Shown in pieces: positions 46,449 to 53,865 of a DNA stretch of 64,000 nucleotides (positions are counted from its first letter, which is position 1; each line of letters starts with the position of its first letter). The notes below the pieces were generated by a model. It worked only from the letters and a program-made list of their open reading frames with translations, was not told the origin of the DNA and did not search any database. The stretch is from Thermoflavifilum sp. (GTDB lineage Bacteria; Bacteroidota; Bacteroidia; Chitinophagales; Chitinophagaceae): positions 124,001 to 188,000 of the forward strand of contig JAIMAQ010000003.1 in assembly GCA_023511875.1 (NCBI GenBank), written 5' to 3'. Both the position numbers and the translations under genes were made by a program.

Positions 46449-46485
46449 ACATGTAGAGACGCATGAGGTTTACGTCTCTACATGT
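46449..46485. terminator. Bidirectional hairpin terminator
   Basis: ACATGTAGAGACG-N11-CGTCTCTACATGT, perfect 13-bp stem between convergent genes; overlaps the argE stop region. Confidence 0.8.
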
Positions 46486-47545
46486 TTCTCTTCTCTCGAA
46501 ACACCTCTTCCAACAACTGGATATAAGTTTCTATTCCTTCTTTGATTTCATGCAAGTAAATAAATTCATCGGCACTATGTGAACGTGCCGAGTCGCCCGG
46601 ACCTATTTTTACTGAAGGACCTGGGATGAGTGCTTGATCGGATGTGGTAGGTGAACCGTATAATGGCTTGCCTATACGCTGTGCAGCCCTCACCAAGGGA
46701 TGATCGAGCGGGATAGAAGAACTGCGCATGCGCATGGATCGGGGTTTGACCTCGCAGCTCACATGATGTGAAATGATGTCGAGAATCTCTTCATGGGTAT
46801 ATACATCGGTAACCCGAATATCAACGGTAAAATGGCAACAAGCTGGCACCACATTGTGTTGCTGCCCGGCTTGAATCATAGTGACGTTCATATTCACTTT
46901 GCCGAGCATAGGCGAAACCTTTGGAAAAGAATAGGTCTTAAACCATTCTATATCGGGTATAGCCTTATAAATGGCATTTTCTCCCTCATTGCGCGCAGCA
47001 TGCCCGGCTCGGCCATAGGTAGTGCAGTCAATCACCAGCAAACCCTTTTCGGCTACAGCCATCTGGGTGAGGGTAGGCTCCCCTACAATGGCAAAATCAA
47101 ATGAAGGCAGCTGGGGTAAAATGCTTTCTATGCCATTAAATCCAGAAATTTCCTCTTCAGCCGTAGCCGTGAAAATAAGATTGTAAGGCAAATCGGGTTG
47201 TGCATAAAAATGCAAGAATGCTGCTATGAGTGATACTAAACAACCACCCGCATCGTTGCTGCCTAACCCAAACAACTTATCGCCTTCAATAGCAGGATCA
47301 AACGGATCGCGCGTATACGCTGGATTGGGCTTTACCGTATCATGATGTGAATTGAGCAAGATACCCGGCTTTGTGGGGTCAAATCCAGCATTTATTGCCC
47401 AAACATTATTTAAATGGCGTTGCACGGGAACATGAAATGATTCCAAAAATTGGGCTATTAAAGTGGCCGTACGATCTTCTTCACGACTGAACGATGGTGT
47501 AGCTATGAGTTGACGCAATAATTCTATACATTGATCATATAACAT
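46478..47545 (-). CDS. argE: M20 family N-acyl-ornithine/citrulline deacetylase (ArgE-like)
   Basis: LLNSHHDTVKPNPAYTRDPFDP, GLGSNDAGGCLVSLIA, ATAEEEISGFNG; within arginine operon. Confidence 0.88.
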   Translation of the reverse strand: MLYDQCIELLRQLIATPSFSREEDRTATLIAQFLESFHVPVQRHLNNVWAINAGFDPTKPGILLNSHHDTVKPNPAYTRDPFDPAIEGDKLFGLGSNDAGGCLVSLIAAFLHFYAQPDLPYNLIFTATAEEEISGFNGIESILPQLPSFDFAIVGEPTLTQMAVAEKGLLVIDCTTYGRAGHAARNEGENAIYKAIPDIEWFKTYSFPKVSPMLGKVNMNVTMIQAGQQHNVVPACCHFTVDIRVTDVYTHEEILDIISHHVSCEVKPRSMRMRSSSIPLDHPLVRAAQRIGKPLYGSPTTSDQALIPGPSVKIGPGDSARSHSADEFIYLHEIKEGIETYIQLLEEVFREKRNM

Positions 47546-47577
47546 GGATGCAAGTTTGTGGTAAAACAGCAATAATA

Positions 47578-48390
47578 CTATAGACTAATGATGGTGCCCA
47601 TTGTCCAGCCATTTGTGGCATTCCAAAGAGATGAAAGGCCTGTGGCTGGGCCAATGATCACCTTTTCGACTCCGGCACGGCAGGCCGATAGGGCATTTTC
47701 TATTTTAGGTATAATACCCTCCCGCAAAGCTCCTTCGCGAATGAGCTCCGGCAAATTGCTTGGACGAATCAAGGGAATTACAGAATCGGGATCTTCTGGA
47801 TTACGCAATACGCCTTTCTGATCAAAACAAAAGATCAACTGCACCCGATAAACAGCTGCCAAGGCTACGGCAACAGCAGAGGCGATGGTATCGGCATTGG
47901 TATTAAGCAGATGACCATCTCCATCATGGGTAAGTGGAGCCAGCACGGGCACCTGCTCCATTTGTATCAGTTGCATCAATATGTTTACATCTACATCGTC
48001 GGCCGTGAGATCGCCCACCCAACCATAATCGATGTCTTTTACAGGCCGTTTGGTTGCGCGCATCAGGTTCATATCGGCTCCAGTAAGGCCAGCGGCTCGG
48101 CATCCAAGTGCTTGTAATTGAGCTACCAGTTGTTTGTTTACCAATCCGCCGTACACCATGGTTACCAACTCGAGTGCGGCTTCATCGGTAATCCTACGCC
48201 CTTGAATATACTGGCTTTTGATACCCATCTGCTCGCCGATACGTGTTGCCAGCTTACCCCCACCATGCACCAAAATCTTATAGCCTGCTATGTCGACAAA
48301 ACTTTGGAGAAAAGCTTTCCTTGCAGCAGGATCATCGATCACCTGTCCGCCAATCTTAATCACATACAACCTTGTGTTGGGTGTAGACAT
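47578..48390 (-). CDS. argB: acetylglutamate kinase
   Basis: YVIKIGGQVIDDPAARKAFLQSFVDIAGYKILVHGGGKLATRI; start at ATG 48390, TAATG overlap with the upstream gene. Confidence 0.92.
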   Translation of the reverse strand: MSTPNTRLYVIKIGGQVIDDPAARKAFLQSFVDIAGYKILVHGGGKLATRIGEQMGIKSQYIQGRRITDEAALELVTMVYGGLVNKQLVAQLQALGCRAAGLTGADMNLMRATKRPVKDIDYGWVGDLTADDVDVNILMQLIQMEQVPVLAPLTHDGDGHLLNTNADTIASAVAVALAAVYRVQLIFCFDQKGVLRNPEDPDSVIPLIRPSNLPELIREGALREGIIPKIENALSACRAGVEKVIIGPATGLSSLWNATNGWTMGTIISL

Positions 48391-49349
48391 TATACTAGGT
48401 TGTGTAAAATATTGGCTAACACGGCTTGCGCCGCCCATACCCGATTGGCTGCTTGGGCGGTGACAATGCTATGTGGCCCATCGAGGATTTCATCGCTCAA
48501 CTCCACATTCCTTCTCACGGGTAAGCAATGCATAACTCGAGCGTTTCGAGTGAGCGAAAGTTTATCTTCGGTGAGCATCCACTCTGGATCGTTGCTATAA
48601 ATTTTTCCATAATCTCGATAAGTACTCCAGTTCTTCACGTATACAAAATCGGCATCGCGCAAGGCTTCGTTTTGATCATGAGTAATATATGCTCCGTGGG
48701 TAAATGATTCATCCAATTCATAATCTTCCGGATGAGTGATCACAAAATCGGCTTTACCCCAGGCATTCATCCATTGTGCAAAGCTATTGGCCACACATTG
48801 CGGAAGGGGCTTAACGTGAGGAGCCCAGGTAAGTACTACCTTAGGTCGAGCCTTGCTATTGGGCCAAAACTCATGGATAGTCATCAAATCGGTGAGGCTT
48901 TGTAGCGGATGAAGCGTAGCGCTTTCCAGGCTCACCACGGGTACCCCAGCATATTTTACAAATTGCTGGATATACAACTCGCTATAATCTTCTTCTTTGT
49001 TGACCAACGTAGGAAAAGTGCGTATACACAAGATATCGAAATATTTCCCGAGAATAGGAGCAGCATCTTTTATATGTTCGCTCGTATGACCGCTCATGAT
49101 AGCCCCCTCTTCAAATTCTAATGCCCATCCTTCTTTATCAATATTAAACACCATCACTTCCATACCCAATTGGCGAGCAGCTATTTGCGTGCTCAGCCGG
49201 GTACGTAAGCTAGGATTCAGAAAAATCAAGGCTATACGTTTGTTTTTACCTAAATTCTGATCTTTCAACGGATCTGCCTTATAGTCTAAAGCCTGAGCTA
49301 TTAAGGCATCGATATCTGCTACATCGTGTACAGAAAGAAATTGTTTCAT
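48390..49349 (-). CDS. argF': N-acyl-L-ornithine carbamoyltransferase (ArgF'-type)
   Basis: NPSLRTRLSTQIAARQLGMEV, SATLHPLQSLTDLMTI, MHCLPVRRNVELSDEILDGP. Confidence 0.92.
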   Translation of the reverse strand: MKQFLSVHDVADIDALIAQALDYKADPLKDQNLGKNKRIALIFLNPSLRTRLSTQIAARQLGMEVMVFNIDKEGWALEFEEGAIMSGHTSEHIKDAAPILGKYFDILCIRTFPTLVNKEEDYSELYIQQFVKYAGVPVVSLESATLHPLQSLTDLMTIHEFWPNSKARPKVVLTWAPHVKPLPQCVANSFAQWMNAWGKADFVITHPEDYELDESFTHGAYITHDQNEALRDADFVYVKNWSTYRDYGKIYSNDPEWMLTEDKLSLTRNARVMHCLPVRRNVELSDEILDGPHSIVTAQAANRVWAAQAVLANILHNLV

Positions 49350-49354
49350 GTGCT

Positions 49355-50527
49355 TTAGCTGGTTGATTTTGCAGAAGGCGATGAAATAGAGGTTTGATTA
49401 AGTATTTCTTCTATAGATTGCTCGAGGGCTTGTAGAAAAATATTGATCTCTTGCTCACGCAAGCTGAGCGGAGGCAATAAACGAATGGTATGTGGTTTAG
49501 CCTCGCCGGTGAACACCTGATGTTGCTGCAATAAGTGTTCACGCAAGCTTGCCAGATGTGAGTTAGGATCTAAGCCAATCATCAATCCCCGACCACGTAA
49601 GTTGGAGATTTGTGGGAACTGTTGCAAGGCCGCCATGAGCTTTTGCCCCATTTGTGCAGCATTTGAAATCAGCTGTTCTTTTTCCATCACTTCCAACACA
49701 GCCAATGCTGCAGCACAAGCCAAATAGCCTCCACCAAAAGTAGTGCCTAGCTGGCCTTTTTTCGGGCGAATATCGGGGTGTATCAACACACCTCCTATGG
49801 GGAATCCATTGCCCATGCCCTTAGCCATAGTGATGAGTGGTGGGCGAATGCCTGCATATTGATGAGCAAAGAAACGGCCTGTGCGTCCATAACCCGATTG
49901 CACCTCATCGAGAATCAATAAGGCCCCATGTTGTGCACAGAGCTCGGCTACCTGCTGGAGAAAAGCATCTTCGGGCATTTGGATGCCACCCACACCCTGT
50001 ATGCCCTCGATGATTACCGCGGCTACATCATTGTCCATCACCTGCTGTAAAGCCGAGATATCATTTAAAGGCACAAAGCTCACCACATGCTGCCGATTAA
50101 AAGGCGATTGAAGGGATGGATTGTCGGTAACGGCTACAGCTCCTGAAGTACGCCCGTGAAAAGATTTTTGGAAAGCTACAACGCGCTTACGACCAGTGAG
50201 AAATGAAGCTAACTTCAATGCATTTTCATTGGCTTCTGCACCAGAATTGCACAGAAAAAGCTGATAATCGGCATATCCACTCATTTCACACAGTTTCTCG
50301 GCAAGTGCTTCCTGCAAAGGGTTACGAACACTATTGGAATAAAAAGCCATCTGTCTCAGCTGTTCTTCAATACGCTGAACATAATGCGGATGGCTATGCC
50401 CAATCGATATCACGGCATGGCCGCCATATAAATCGAGATACCTTGTACCGTTTTTATCCCAGAGATAACAACCCTCAGCACGTACCGGTGTAATGGGCAA
50501 AAGACTATATACATCAAACAAAGGCAT
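49355..50527 (-). CDS. argD: acyl-ornithine aminotransferase
   Basis: FLCNSGAEANENALKLASFLTGRKRVVAFQKSFHGRTSGAVAVT, LILDEVQSGYGRTGRFFAHQYAGIRPPLITMAKGMGNGFPIGGVL. Confidence 0.95.
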   Translation of the reverse strand: MPLFDVYSLLPITPVRAEGCYLWDKNGTRYLDLYGGHAVISIGHSHPHYVQRIEEQLRQMAFYSNSVRNPLQEALAEKLCEMSGYADYQLFLCNSGAEANENALKLASFLTGRKRVVAFQKSFHGRTSGAVAVTDNPSLQSPFNRQHVVSFVPLNDISALQQVMDNDVAAVIIEGIQGVGGIQMPEDAFLQQVAELCAQHGALLILDEVQSGYGRTGRFFAHQYAGIRPPLITMAKGMGNGFPIGGVLIHPDIRPKKGQLGTTFGGGYLACAAALAVLEVMEKEQLISNAAQMGQKLMAALQQFPQISNLRGRGLMIGLDPNSHLASLREHLLQQHQVFTGEAKPHTIRLLPPLSLREQEINIFLQALEQSIEEILNQTSISSPSAKSTS

Positions 50528-50546: not shown

Positions 50547-51530
50547 TTAAAACACACTTGCTTTTAGCTTTAACCCAAGCGTTTCTTCCCAACCCATCAT
50601 TAAATTCAAATTTTGAACGGCTTGCCCCGATGCACCTTTCACCAAATTATCTTCTACCGAATGTACCACCAATTGATCGCCAATCTTTTCGGGGTATATT
50701 AACACTTTATTGGTATTGATGACTTGCTTCAGGTCTACCATTTCGCGGGAAACATGAGTAAACGGATGCGTTGCATAATACTGTTCATACAGCTCAAAAA
50801 CTTCATCCTGGCTCAATGGGCAATACAGCTGTGAACTCACAAAAATGCCGCGGGTAAAATCACCACGCCAGGGAATAAAATGAAGGGGTGCATCGTAATG
50901 AGGCTGTAGTGCTGTTAGCGTTTGTCGAATCTCATGCAGATGCTGATGTGAAAGTGTTTTATAGGCATTGATGTTGTGTGCACGCCACGAGAAATGGGTG
51001 CTAGGCTGCAATTTCTGTCCAGCTCCTGTAGATCCCGTGATGGCTGTGCTATGCACCTCATTTAGTAAGCCTGCTTTGGCTAGCGGTAATAAACCCAGCT
51101 GAATAGCCGTAGCAAAACAACCAGGATTAGCGATATCGTGAGCTTGTTGAATTTGCTCGCGTTGCCATTCTGGAAGACCGTATACAAAGCGACGGCCAGC
51201 AAATTCTGCAGTAGACTGCAGACGAAAATCTTGACTCAGGTCAATGATGCGAATATAATCGGGCACAACATGTTCTTCTAAGAATCGACGCGATTCGCCA
51301 TGCCCCATACACAAAAACCACACATCTGTATCTGGGTTCAATTGATCAGTAAACCTGAGCTCCGTATCACCTATTAAGTCTCGATGCACAGCATACACGG
51401 GATCACCAGCATGGCTACGGCTATGCACAAAAGCAATCTCAACCCGAGGATGATACATCAAAATACGCATCAGCTCGCCACCTGTATATCCTGCTCCGCC
51501 TACAATTCCAATCTTTATGCGTTCGTTCAT
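50547..51530 (-). CDS. argC: N-acetyl-gamma-glutamyl-phosphate reductase
   Basis: IGIVGGAGYTGGELMRILMYHPRVEI, ANPGCFATAIQLGLLPL, GSTGAGQKLQPSTHFSWR. Confidence 0.95.
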   Translation of the reverse strand: MNERIKIGIVGGAGYTGGELMRILMYHPRVEIAFVHSRSHAGDPVYAVHRDLIGDTELRFTDQLNPDTDVWFLCMGHGESRRFLEEHVVPDYIRIIDLSQDFRLQSTAEFAGRRFVYGLPEWQREQIQQAHDIANPGCFATAIQLGLLPLAKAGLLNEVHSTAITGSTGAGQKLQPSTHFSWRAHNINAYKTLSHQHLHEIRQTLTALQPHYDAPLHFIPWRGDFTRGIFVSSQLYCPLSQDEVFELYEQYYATHPFTHVSREMVDLKQVINTNKVLIYPEKIGDQLVVHSVEDNLVKGASGQAVQNLNLMMGWEETLGLKLKASVF

Positions 51531-51541
51531 CTGATTTAGGT

Positions 51542-52741
51542 TTACTTGATTTCATCTTTTATGTGATACCAAATGCTAAGGGCATTAGCCATGATTTTAG
51601 AAAAGCCGCGTACATCCTCGCCCGTCCAGGCGTTGTTCATTTCACCATAGGTCCCCGATTTACTTTGCATGAGGTCGTAGGCCGACTGAATGCCGTTGAT
51701 CTGAAAACGGTAAGGAAAAAAAGTGATAAACACTTTACCCGATACCCGTTGTTGAGATGAAGTAAGAAAAGCTTCCATATCGCGCATCACTGGGTCGAGC
51801 AACAGGCCTTCATGCACCCAATTCCCATAGAATATCGAAAGCTGGTCTTTGATCATCAACTGCCATTTGGTGAGTACATGTTTTTCTAAAGCATGATGGG
51901 CTTTCAAGATCACCATAGGCCCTGGAGCTTCAAAGCCCACACGCCCTTTGATACCAATGATCGTATCTCCTACATGAATATCTCGGCCAATGCCAAAACT
52001 TCCGGCTATTTCATTAAGGGCTTGAATGGTGTGGGTGGGATGATCAAACACTTGGTTATTTAGCCCTACAGGTTCGCCTTTTTCGAAAATCAAGGTTAAG
52101 TCTTCGGGCTGTTGCTTGCTTACAGGATGAGGAAATGCCGACTCGGGCAAAAACTGATCAGAAGTCAAGGTCTCTTTTCCGCCCACAGAAGTTCCCCAAA
52201 TACCTTTGTTAATGGAATATACTGATTTTTCTGCCGAGACCTCCACCCCATGTGCTTGCAAATAGGCCACTTCGGCTTCACGACTTAGGCGCTGATCACG
52301 GATAGGTGTGATGATTTCTATGTCGGGAACAAGGATATGAAAAACCATGTCAAACCGCACTTGATCATTACCCGCTCCTGTGCTACCATGTGCAATGGCA
52401 TCGGCCTGTAGTTTACGGGCTTCTTCAGCCAAGATAAGCGCTTGTGTGATTCGCTCTGCACTTACGCTCAGGGGGTAGGTATTATTTTTCAAGACATTGC
52501 CAAAGATCAGGTAACGAAGCACACGATCGTAATAAGATTTTACTGCATTGATGGTAATATGTTGTACAGCACCTAATTGATAAGCACGATGCTCGATGGC
52601 TTTAAGCTCTTCGGGTGTAAAGCCGCCAGTATCAATAGTCACCGTATACACGGCATATCCTTTCTCTTCGGTCAAATATTTTACACAATAAGAAGTATCT
52701 AATCCACCGCTAAATCCTAAAACAACTTTTTTCTGATTCAT
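51542..52741 (-). CDS. argG: argininosuccinate synthase
   Basis: KKVVLGFSGGLDTSYCVKYL, HGSTGAGNDQVRFDM. Confidence 0.95.
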   Translation of the reverse strand: MNQKKVVLGFSGGLDTSYCVKYLTEEKGYAVYTVTIDTGGFTPEELKAIEHRAYQLGAVQHITINAVKSYYDRVLRYLIFGNVLKNNTYPLSVSAERITQALILAEEARKLQADAIAHGSTGAGNDQVRFDMVFHILVPDIEIITPIRDQRLSREAEVAYLQAHGVEVSAEKSVYSINKGIWGTSVGGKETLTSDQFLPESAFPHPVSKQQPEDLTLIFEKGEPVGLNNQVFDHPTHTIQALNEIAGSFGIGRDIHVGDTIIGIKGRVGFEAPGPMVILKAHHALEKHVLTKWQLMIKDQLSIFYGNWVHEGLLLDPVMRDMEAFLTSSQQRVSGKVFITFFPYRFQINGIQSAYDLMQSKSGTYGEMNNAWTGEDVRGFSKIMANALSIWYHIKDEIK

Positions 52742-52753
52742 GGATCGATTTCA

Positions 52754-53530
52754 TTAAAACAAATCAAACAAAAAAAATTTCTTTTTTTCAGGCACTGCAC
52801 CTCCTGAGGGTATTTGCTGTGGGTCTTGGGTTCGATAGGGTTTCAACAACACATATCGTTTGAATCGGAGCCAGCGTTCAAAAAGCTTCCAATTACCTGC
52901 AAAGCTGCGTTTTTTCCGTCCGTTAACCCTTGCAGTTGCAGCTGCAGCTGTAGCAGTAGCTTCCTTTTTTTTCTGAGCGGCTGGATCAAAGAGCATGGCC
53001 GTGCACAAGCAGTTTTTTCGATTCTTGCTCATTAAGATTTCATAGTTCACACAACTCTGGCATCCTTTCCAGAACTCATCATCGTCGGTAAGTTCTGAAT
53101 AGGTAACCGGTACATAACCCAGTTCAGAATTGATTTTCATTACAGCCAGCGTAGTGGTAAGTCCGAATATTTTGGCTTCAGGATATTTTTCTCTAGACAA
53201 TTCAAATATTCTACGCTTGATAGCTTTAGCAGCGCCACTTCCACGGAATGGGGGAGAAACAATCAGGCCGGAGTTGGCCACAAATTTACCATGACTCCAG
53301 GCTTCGATATAACAGAAGCCCACCCATTCTCCATCGGGTGTAACAGCAATTACTGCTTTGCCTTCCTGCATTTTTTGACGGATGTACTCTGGCGAACGGC
53401 GTGCAATACCCGTTCCACGTGCTTTGGCCGAAGCAGCCATTTCTTCGGTGATCTGCTCAGCATAATGGGCATCATCAGCTGTAGCCACCCGTACGATAAA
53501 CGGTTTTTTGTTTTCCAACTTTATCTTCAA
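52754..53530 (-). CDS. GNAT family N-acetyltransferase leading the arginine operon (candidate ArgA-like)
   Basis: FIVRVATADDAHYAEQITEEMAASAKARGTGIARRSPEYIRQKM...GLIVSPPFRGSGAAKAIKRRIFELSREKYP; first gene of argG-C-D-F'-B-E. Confidence 0.8.
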   Translation of the reverse strand: MKIKLENKKPFIVRVATADDAHYAEQITEEMAASAKARGTGIARRSPEYIRQKMQEGKAVIAVTPDGEWVGFCYIEAWSHGKFVANSGLIVSPPFRGSGAAKAIKRRIFELSREKYPEAKIFGLTTTLAVMKINSELGYVPVTYSELTDDDEFWKGCQSCVNYEILMSKNRKNCLCTAMLFDPAAQKKKEATATAAAATARVNGRKKRSFAGNWKLFERWLRFKRYVLLKPYRTQDPQQIPSGGAVPEKKKFFLFDLF

Positions 53531-53597
53531 TTAAAAAGAACCAAAAAATATAAATGTGAAAGGACTTGAGGTGCACCTTCATGATCGTGAAGAATAG

Positions 53598-53626
53598 TTG
53601 ATGCAGCTGGTGCATGCTGACATCAA
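53598..53626 (-). promoter_or_regulatory. Hairpin in the 5' leader of the arginine operon
   Basis: Plus strand TTGATGCAGC-TGGTGCAT-GCTG(A)CATCAA: 10 bp paired with one bulged base. Confidence 0.5.
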
Positions 53627-53783
53627 CAGCGAGGTCGTCGGGGTCTAATGAAGTACGTTGTAGGAAGATATAGCCATCCTTGCTGTGCCCCGAAAGCAAA
53701 TGGTTGGTAAATGTGGTGCTGGTTCAATTTCTATTCAGCATTAAAAGTTGTGAAAAGAAAAATGATTTTCTTGCTATAGCCTG

Positions 53784-53811
53784 CAAAGTTATAGGAAAAT
53801 CAATTGATTTT
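53784..53811 (-). promoter_or_regulatory. Putative arginine operon promoter (-7 TAACTTTG) with overlapping 16-bp palindrome AAAATCAATTGATTTT
   Basis: Exact TAnnTTTG at 53784-53791 (minus strand); perfect palindrome at 53796-53811 lies in the expected promoter spacer. Confidence 0.5.
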
Positions 53812-53865
53812 TTCCAAAAAAATCTGGAGAGCTAGTCATTTTTTTTACGCTTAGGCTATGATCAA

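Follow-up and report, generated by a model that had tools for sequence, protein, structure and literature searches.

The window, by which we mean the whole stretch of 64,000 nt that was analysed, comes from a genome that belongs to the same genus as Thermoflavifilum thermophilum (family Chitinophagaceae), and carries on its minus strand an operon whose product is arginine. Its genes are, in order, a GNAT acetyltransferase (52754..53518), argG for argininosuccinate synthase (51542..52741), argC of the N-acetyl-glutamyl-phosphate reductase type (50547..51530), an argD-type aminotransferase (49355..50527), an argF-type transcarbamylase (48390..49349), argB of the amino-acid kinase family (47578..48438) and an argE-type M20 deacylase (46478..47572). 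The first-pass annotation had described a leader of about 250 nt before the GNAT gene. We confirmed the long leader, but the GNAT start had been placed at 53530; since the alignment of relatives begins at TTG 53518 (TTGGAAAAC...), we corrected the start to that position, and the leader is therefore about 260 nt long. Some genomes carry two GNAT genes of the operon's family, of which a single one has an Arg leader (L067/L088, both in one Saprospiraceae MAG, L078/L084 and L012/L024).

The promoter element TAACTTTG that had been recognised upstream is present at 53784..53791 on the minus strand and is identical in all five members of the genus. It is of the TAnnTTTG type, which is the -7 consensus of Bacteroidota promoters (PMC7366714). 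The sequence TTTG at 53815..53818 (minus strand), 23 nt from the -7 element, is a candidate -33 element, and TTTTG is found at 22 nt from the -7 element in relatives.

The leader open reading frame and its arginine codons

Between the promoter and the GNAT gene lies an ORF of 34 codons with a TTG start (53727..53623, minus strand), which encodes MNQHHIYQPFAFGAQQGWLYLPTTYFIRPRRPRC followed by a stop codon and is found in all five members of the genus. Its tail reads I-R-P-R-R-P-R-C-stop, and the putative control codons at 53623..53646 of the minus strand are AGA CCC CGA CGA CCT CGC TGT TGA, that is, four Arg codons in seven and then the stop. This Arg-rich ORF is the main feature of the leader, and it had been overlooked in the first-pass annotation. 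In the four other Thermoflavifilum members the ORF has 34-35 codons, starts with TTGAACCAGC and ends in RPRRPRR or RPRRPRY, and its middle is highly divergent. Substitutions in the ORF body were equal across all three codon positions, and selection at the protein level on the body was looked for among the genus substitutions and not found. Because the three codon positions change equally, it is the length, the frame and the Arg end that have been kept rather than the peptide sequence. An unconserved body with a kept length, frame and end is typical of leader peptides.

A competing ORF in another frame (53699-53475), which overlaps the GNAT start, was rejected, as neither its tail nor its body was conserved on reading the relatives. 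Elsewhere in the genome, the search for a second copy of the Arg-codon tail gave one other match at 3 mismatches, which is the background level. Several smaller features surround the start of the leader ORF. A five-codon ORF, ATG CTG AAT AGA AAT TGA (53741-53724, minus strand), has a stop that overlaps the TTG of the leader ORF (TTGA); it is kept in all five genus members and not outside the genus, and may be just a conserved initiation region. The sequence GAACCA at the start of the leader ORF (53718-53725) has its complement, TGGTTC, shortly before the GNAT start (53538-53544, minus strand), and this complementarity is conserved in the genus, with GGGTTC in L023. The contexts that precede the leader ORF and the GNAT ORF are also alike in relatives (TTTTAATGCTGAACAGAAATTG and TTTTAATGCTAAACAAAGTTG).

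We then compared GNAT-arg operons of Chitinophagales, Sphingobacteriales and Saprospiraceae/Cytophagales MAGs. An ORF with an Arg-rich tail was found at the equivalent place in 5/5 Thermoflavifilum genomes and in about 85 operons, which is most of those sampled. Taking as criterion an ORF that is 15 codons or longer and has at least 3 Arg among its last 9 codons, we counted 54 such leaders among 76 non-redundant ones; dinucleotide shuffles gave a mean of 2.4 and a maximum of 6, and the opposite strand gave 10. Under the same last-9-codon test other amino acids were at or near background, and none stood out like Arg. Tails in relatives include RPRRPRR, RRPRI, RPRRGC, RPRRRPEC, RVRR, RRRR and FRPGC. 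CGA accounts for 51% of tail Arg codons compared to 16.5% in the genes of the window, all six Arg codons are present among the tails, and a leader from another family of the order ends in AGG CGT AGG CGC and a stop. This codon usage indicates that the identity of Arg has been kept, and not one DNA motif. No convincing second Arg leader was seen at carA or argS, the argS loci being covered in part.

The hairpin at the stop codon and a candidate alternative helix

The bulged hairpin that had been listed at 53598-53626 is present at 53597..53627 of the minus strand (GTTGATG-U-CAGC / GCTG-CATCAAC). It starts at the stop codon of the leader ORF, and the UGA lies within its 5' arm. Three other elements of the same list are likewise in place: the TCGGGG/CCCCGA complementarity (53688-53693 / 53638-53643), the small CTTCA/TGAAG hairpin (53577..53592, minus strand), which is not conserved as such in the genus, and the palindrome AGGTGCACCT (53569-53578). 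Part of this palindrome is GGTGCA (53572..53577, minus strand), a candidate region 4 that pairs with TGCACC in the hairpin loop (53609..53614, minus strand), a candidate region 3. The GCACC:GGTGC pairing is kept in all 5 genus members.

A covariation analysis of the leaders of relatives, which the first-pass annotation had proposed, detected covariation in the equivalent hairpin at the stop codon of 23 relatives. There it has the form CTGAyAGG...CCTrTCAG with an inner GCC:GGC helix and compensatory changes; 99.2% of cells were paired, and the covariation score was far above all slid controls. The sliding control preserves relatedness, whereas the shuffle control does not. In 15 of those 23 relatives, the loop segment NACCA has a downstream partner, TGGTN. 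One pair of this loop-downstream helix varies, occurring as A-U, C-G, U-A and G-C; it was formed in 11 and unformed in 4 of the 15, in a test in which the two segments were concatenated and the spacer was left out. As a separate observation, the stop-codon hairpin of L006, L007, L009 and other Chitinophagaceae leaders carries an internal loop that is conserved and asymmetric, with ACGA or CCGA opposite a single C, and an invariant flank CAGTGAA, a conservation beyond the need of a plain attenuator hairpin.

In order to compare the two positions of a ribosome, we folded the RNA outside the ribosome footprint for a ribosome placed on the first Arg codon and for one placed on the stop codon. Three of the four Thermoflavifilum leaders folded gave, at both 37 and 60 C, a predicted stop-codon hairpin for the first position and predicted pairing of the loop with the downstream segment for the second. 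The same helix exchange was predicted in L011, L022 and L052. In the window's own leader the alternative helix has only 6 bp and the predicted at-stop fold is weak. Over 66 leaders with a stalled ribosome, a helix starting near the stop codon had a predicted probability higher than 0.5 in 58. The overall stability of the window's leader was not exceptional (z = -1.29).

The output step and the his leader

We scanned 78 arg leaders for a hairpin followed by a U-run, using a threshold of -8 kcal/mol. Candidates were found in 14 leaders, about half of them of Chitinophaga, compared to 2-4 in shuffles; a universal U-run terminator for arg leaders was rejected on this count. In the Thermoflavifilum arg leaders the scan found none at or below -7 kcal/mol. 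The scan itself works, because it found a textbook terminator in 11/11 his leaders. In most genomes that carry the arg leader, these his leaders open with a His-rich leader peptide. In the his operons of the genus (L115, L111, L112 and L113) a His leader peptide, for example MKRHVHHHVANFSPGTPR and a stop, lies upstream of hisG and is followed by a strong terminator AAGGCUUACC..GGUAAGCCUU-UUUU, an arrangement that was also seen in Chitinophagaceae relatives. The presence of a his leader peptide and terminator in the same genomes therefore shows that leader-peptide control operates in this lineage.

The same arginine leader peptide might act on translation instead, with region 3 or another segment sequestering the GNAT start, and the at-stop fold of the window does pair CCAGCT with AGTTGG at that start. 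However, the predicted folds of the other three genus leaders lack this pairing, and over 66 leaders the predicted accessibility of the GNAT start is 0.486 in one ribosome state and 0.488 in the other. On this unchanged accessibility we rejected start-codon sequestration as a general output, and we consider a translational output for the leader unlikely. The spacer has more C than G in 57/66 leaders compared to 23/48 control upstream regions, a bias that agrees with Rho but is a weak indication of it. On these results premature transcription termination is the likeliest of the candidate outputs.

Interpretation and relation to known systems

Taken as a whole, we have high confidence in reading the leader as a ribosome-sensing arginine attenuator, with termination as its presumed output, and translation of the leader peptide is very probably the cell's gauge of arginine. 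Transcription would start near 53778, and a ribosome would translate the 34-codon ORF, whose last codons are Arg-rich and mostly CGA, a step that the comparison of relatives supports. When charged tRNA-Arg is scarce, the ribosome would stall on the Arg codons with its front just short of the stop, and the stop-codon hairpin (53597-53627) would be free to form, which would be the 'on' state. With plentiful arginine, the ribosome would reach the stop codon and cover the 5' arm of the hairpin, so that the loop and the 3' arm could pair downstream (TGCACC with GGTGCA), giving the 'off' state. Folding and comparison suggest this exchange, and from them we infer its direction. The off state would lower expression, most likely by premature transcription termination, for which Chitinophaga and some others would use a U-run terminator and Thermoflavifilum perhaps Rho. 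The points against attenuation are the missing U-run terminator in Thermoflavifilum, the 6-bp alternative helix and weak at-stop fold of the window's own leader, the TTG start, the pair that is unformed in 4 of 15 relatives, and the ORF body, whose lack of conservation is common in such leaders without speaking for one.

A different sensing step would be nascent-peptide arrest, in which the peptide R-P-R-R-P-R itself, and not its codons through charged tRNA, would detect free arginine from within the exit tunnel, much as the fungal arginine attenuator peptide and SpeFL respond to their own ligands. Pro after Arg occurs in 66/85 tails and could slow peptide bond formation. The residues around Arg vary widely, unlike in sequence-specific arrest peptides, and the opposite polarity would be required unless arrest meant repression. 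We regard such an arrest as improbable. A metabolite-binding riboswitch or other known structured RNA, T-box included, would agree with a covarying stop-codon hairpin that has a conserved internal loop in Chitinophagaceae. However, no Rfam model matched the window or any of 18 related loci, the structure differs strongly among lineages while the Arg-codon tail persists, and the most conserved hairpin lies exactly at the stop codon of the ORF; we consider a known structured RNA very improbable here.

The last reading takes the 16-bp palindrome AAAATCAATTGATTTT (53796..53811) as an operator, with a regulator that binds it, blocks polymerase and leaves the leader passive. The palindrome is present in the promoter spacer as had been annotated, between the -33 and -7 elements, but the operator role that had been attached to it is scarcely credible, since such perfect palindromes are at chance frequency in the window (2 seen compared to 1.16 expected), the one here is absent from the equivalent place in the other four genus members, where the sequence differs, its exact sequence recurs nowhere else in the genome, and ArgR is absent. 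The palindrome is probably incidental.

The search for an ArgR-type regulator, which had also been proposed, found neither the N-terminal nor the C-terminal domain in the genome (PF02863 and PF01316 both absent). The ArgR C-terminal domain was absent from the window's genome, its genus and 39/40 of the relatives searched; the sole marginal match, in the genome of L026 (G009), is at the cut-off, has an in-frame stop and is probably due to chance. No ArgR was found in 15 leader-bearing genomes or in 99/100 genomes of the order, and it was found in 2/3 rumen Bacteroidales genomes without the leader. Positive controls were detected in each of these searches. On these counts the arg leader fits a lineage whose arginine sensing is without ArgR. 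The first-pass annotation was correct in placing a long, hairpin-bearing regulatory leader ahead of the arg operon, in likening it to no ARG box or known riboswitch, and in turning to relatives for information. The ArgR / ARG box system serves the same operon type and the same physiological input, but it is a protein repressor with DNA operators, and ArgR is absent here.

The broad class of the attenuation leader is that of amino-acid leader peptides, and the defining terminator of the classical type was not found in this genus. Like the his, trp, leu and thr attenuators, the arg leader has a short ORF in which the product's codon is frequent and a stop codon beside a hairpin, and the ribosome position is predicted to select between helices. 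It differs in that arginine would be sensed and in that a U-run terminator is missing in the window's genus. Other arginine-sensing leaders are the Arg-specific T-boxes of Clostridia and the fungal arginine attenuator peptide. Five leader peptides had no match in Pfam and NCBIfam, apart from one negligible Pfam match, and the Pfam scan gave none to PF10940 (SpeFL / orf34).

The orf34 of Salmonella speF, which encodes SpeFL, is a 34-codon ORF with consecutive Arg codons, where ribosomes pausing on the Arg codons allow a hairpin to form immediately after the stop and a ribosome sitting on the stop prevents it (PMC6386406). Both leaders have 34 codons with Arg codons, and the hairpin logic proposed for the arg leader is the same, although orf34 controls ornithine decarboxylase, has its Arg codons early and belongs to PF10940, which the arg leader does not match. 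Within the same phylum, leader-peptide candidates upstream of amino-acid operons, with attenuation inferred, and structured 5' elements at hisG and pheA are described in Flavobacterium psychrophilum, and the main text of that paper names no arginine leader (PMC9723704). Leader-peptide attenuation in Bacteroidota is also mentioned in general terms in two papers (PMC9723704, PMC7366714). The open-licence papers searched described no arginine leader peptide in Bacteroidota, nor one that heads an arginine operon.

A more general proposal, which we put forward tentatively as somewhat short of an even chance, is that in Bacteroidota outside Bacteroidales a conserved Arg-codon leader peptide replaces ArgR in the control of arginine synthesis and that often, this genus included, it would use no intrinsic terminator and would exchange the stop-codon hairpin for a pseudoknot-like loop-to-downstream helix, acting via Rho or another step. 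The his leader with a terminator and the arg leader without one, in the same genomes, make the output step a well-posed question. Arginine would join the amino acids whose biosynthetic operon is apparently under bacterial leader-peptide control, none having been described for it in the open-licence literature searched, and leader-peptide control would be extended in a phylum whose translation initiation and promoters are unusual. The leader offers a testable answer to how a large ArgR-less group of bacteria may sense arginine.
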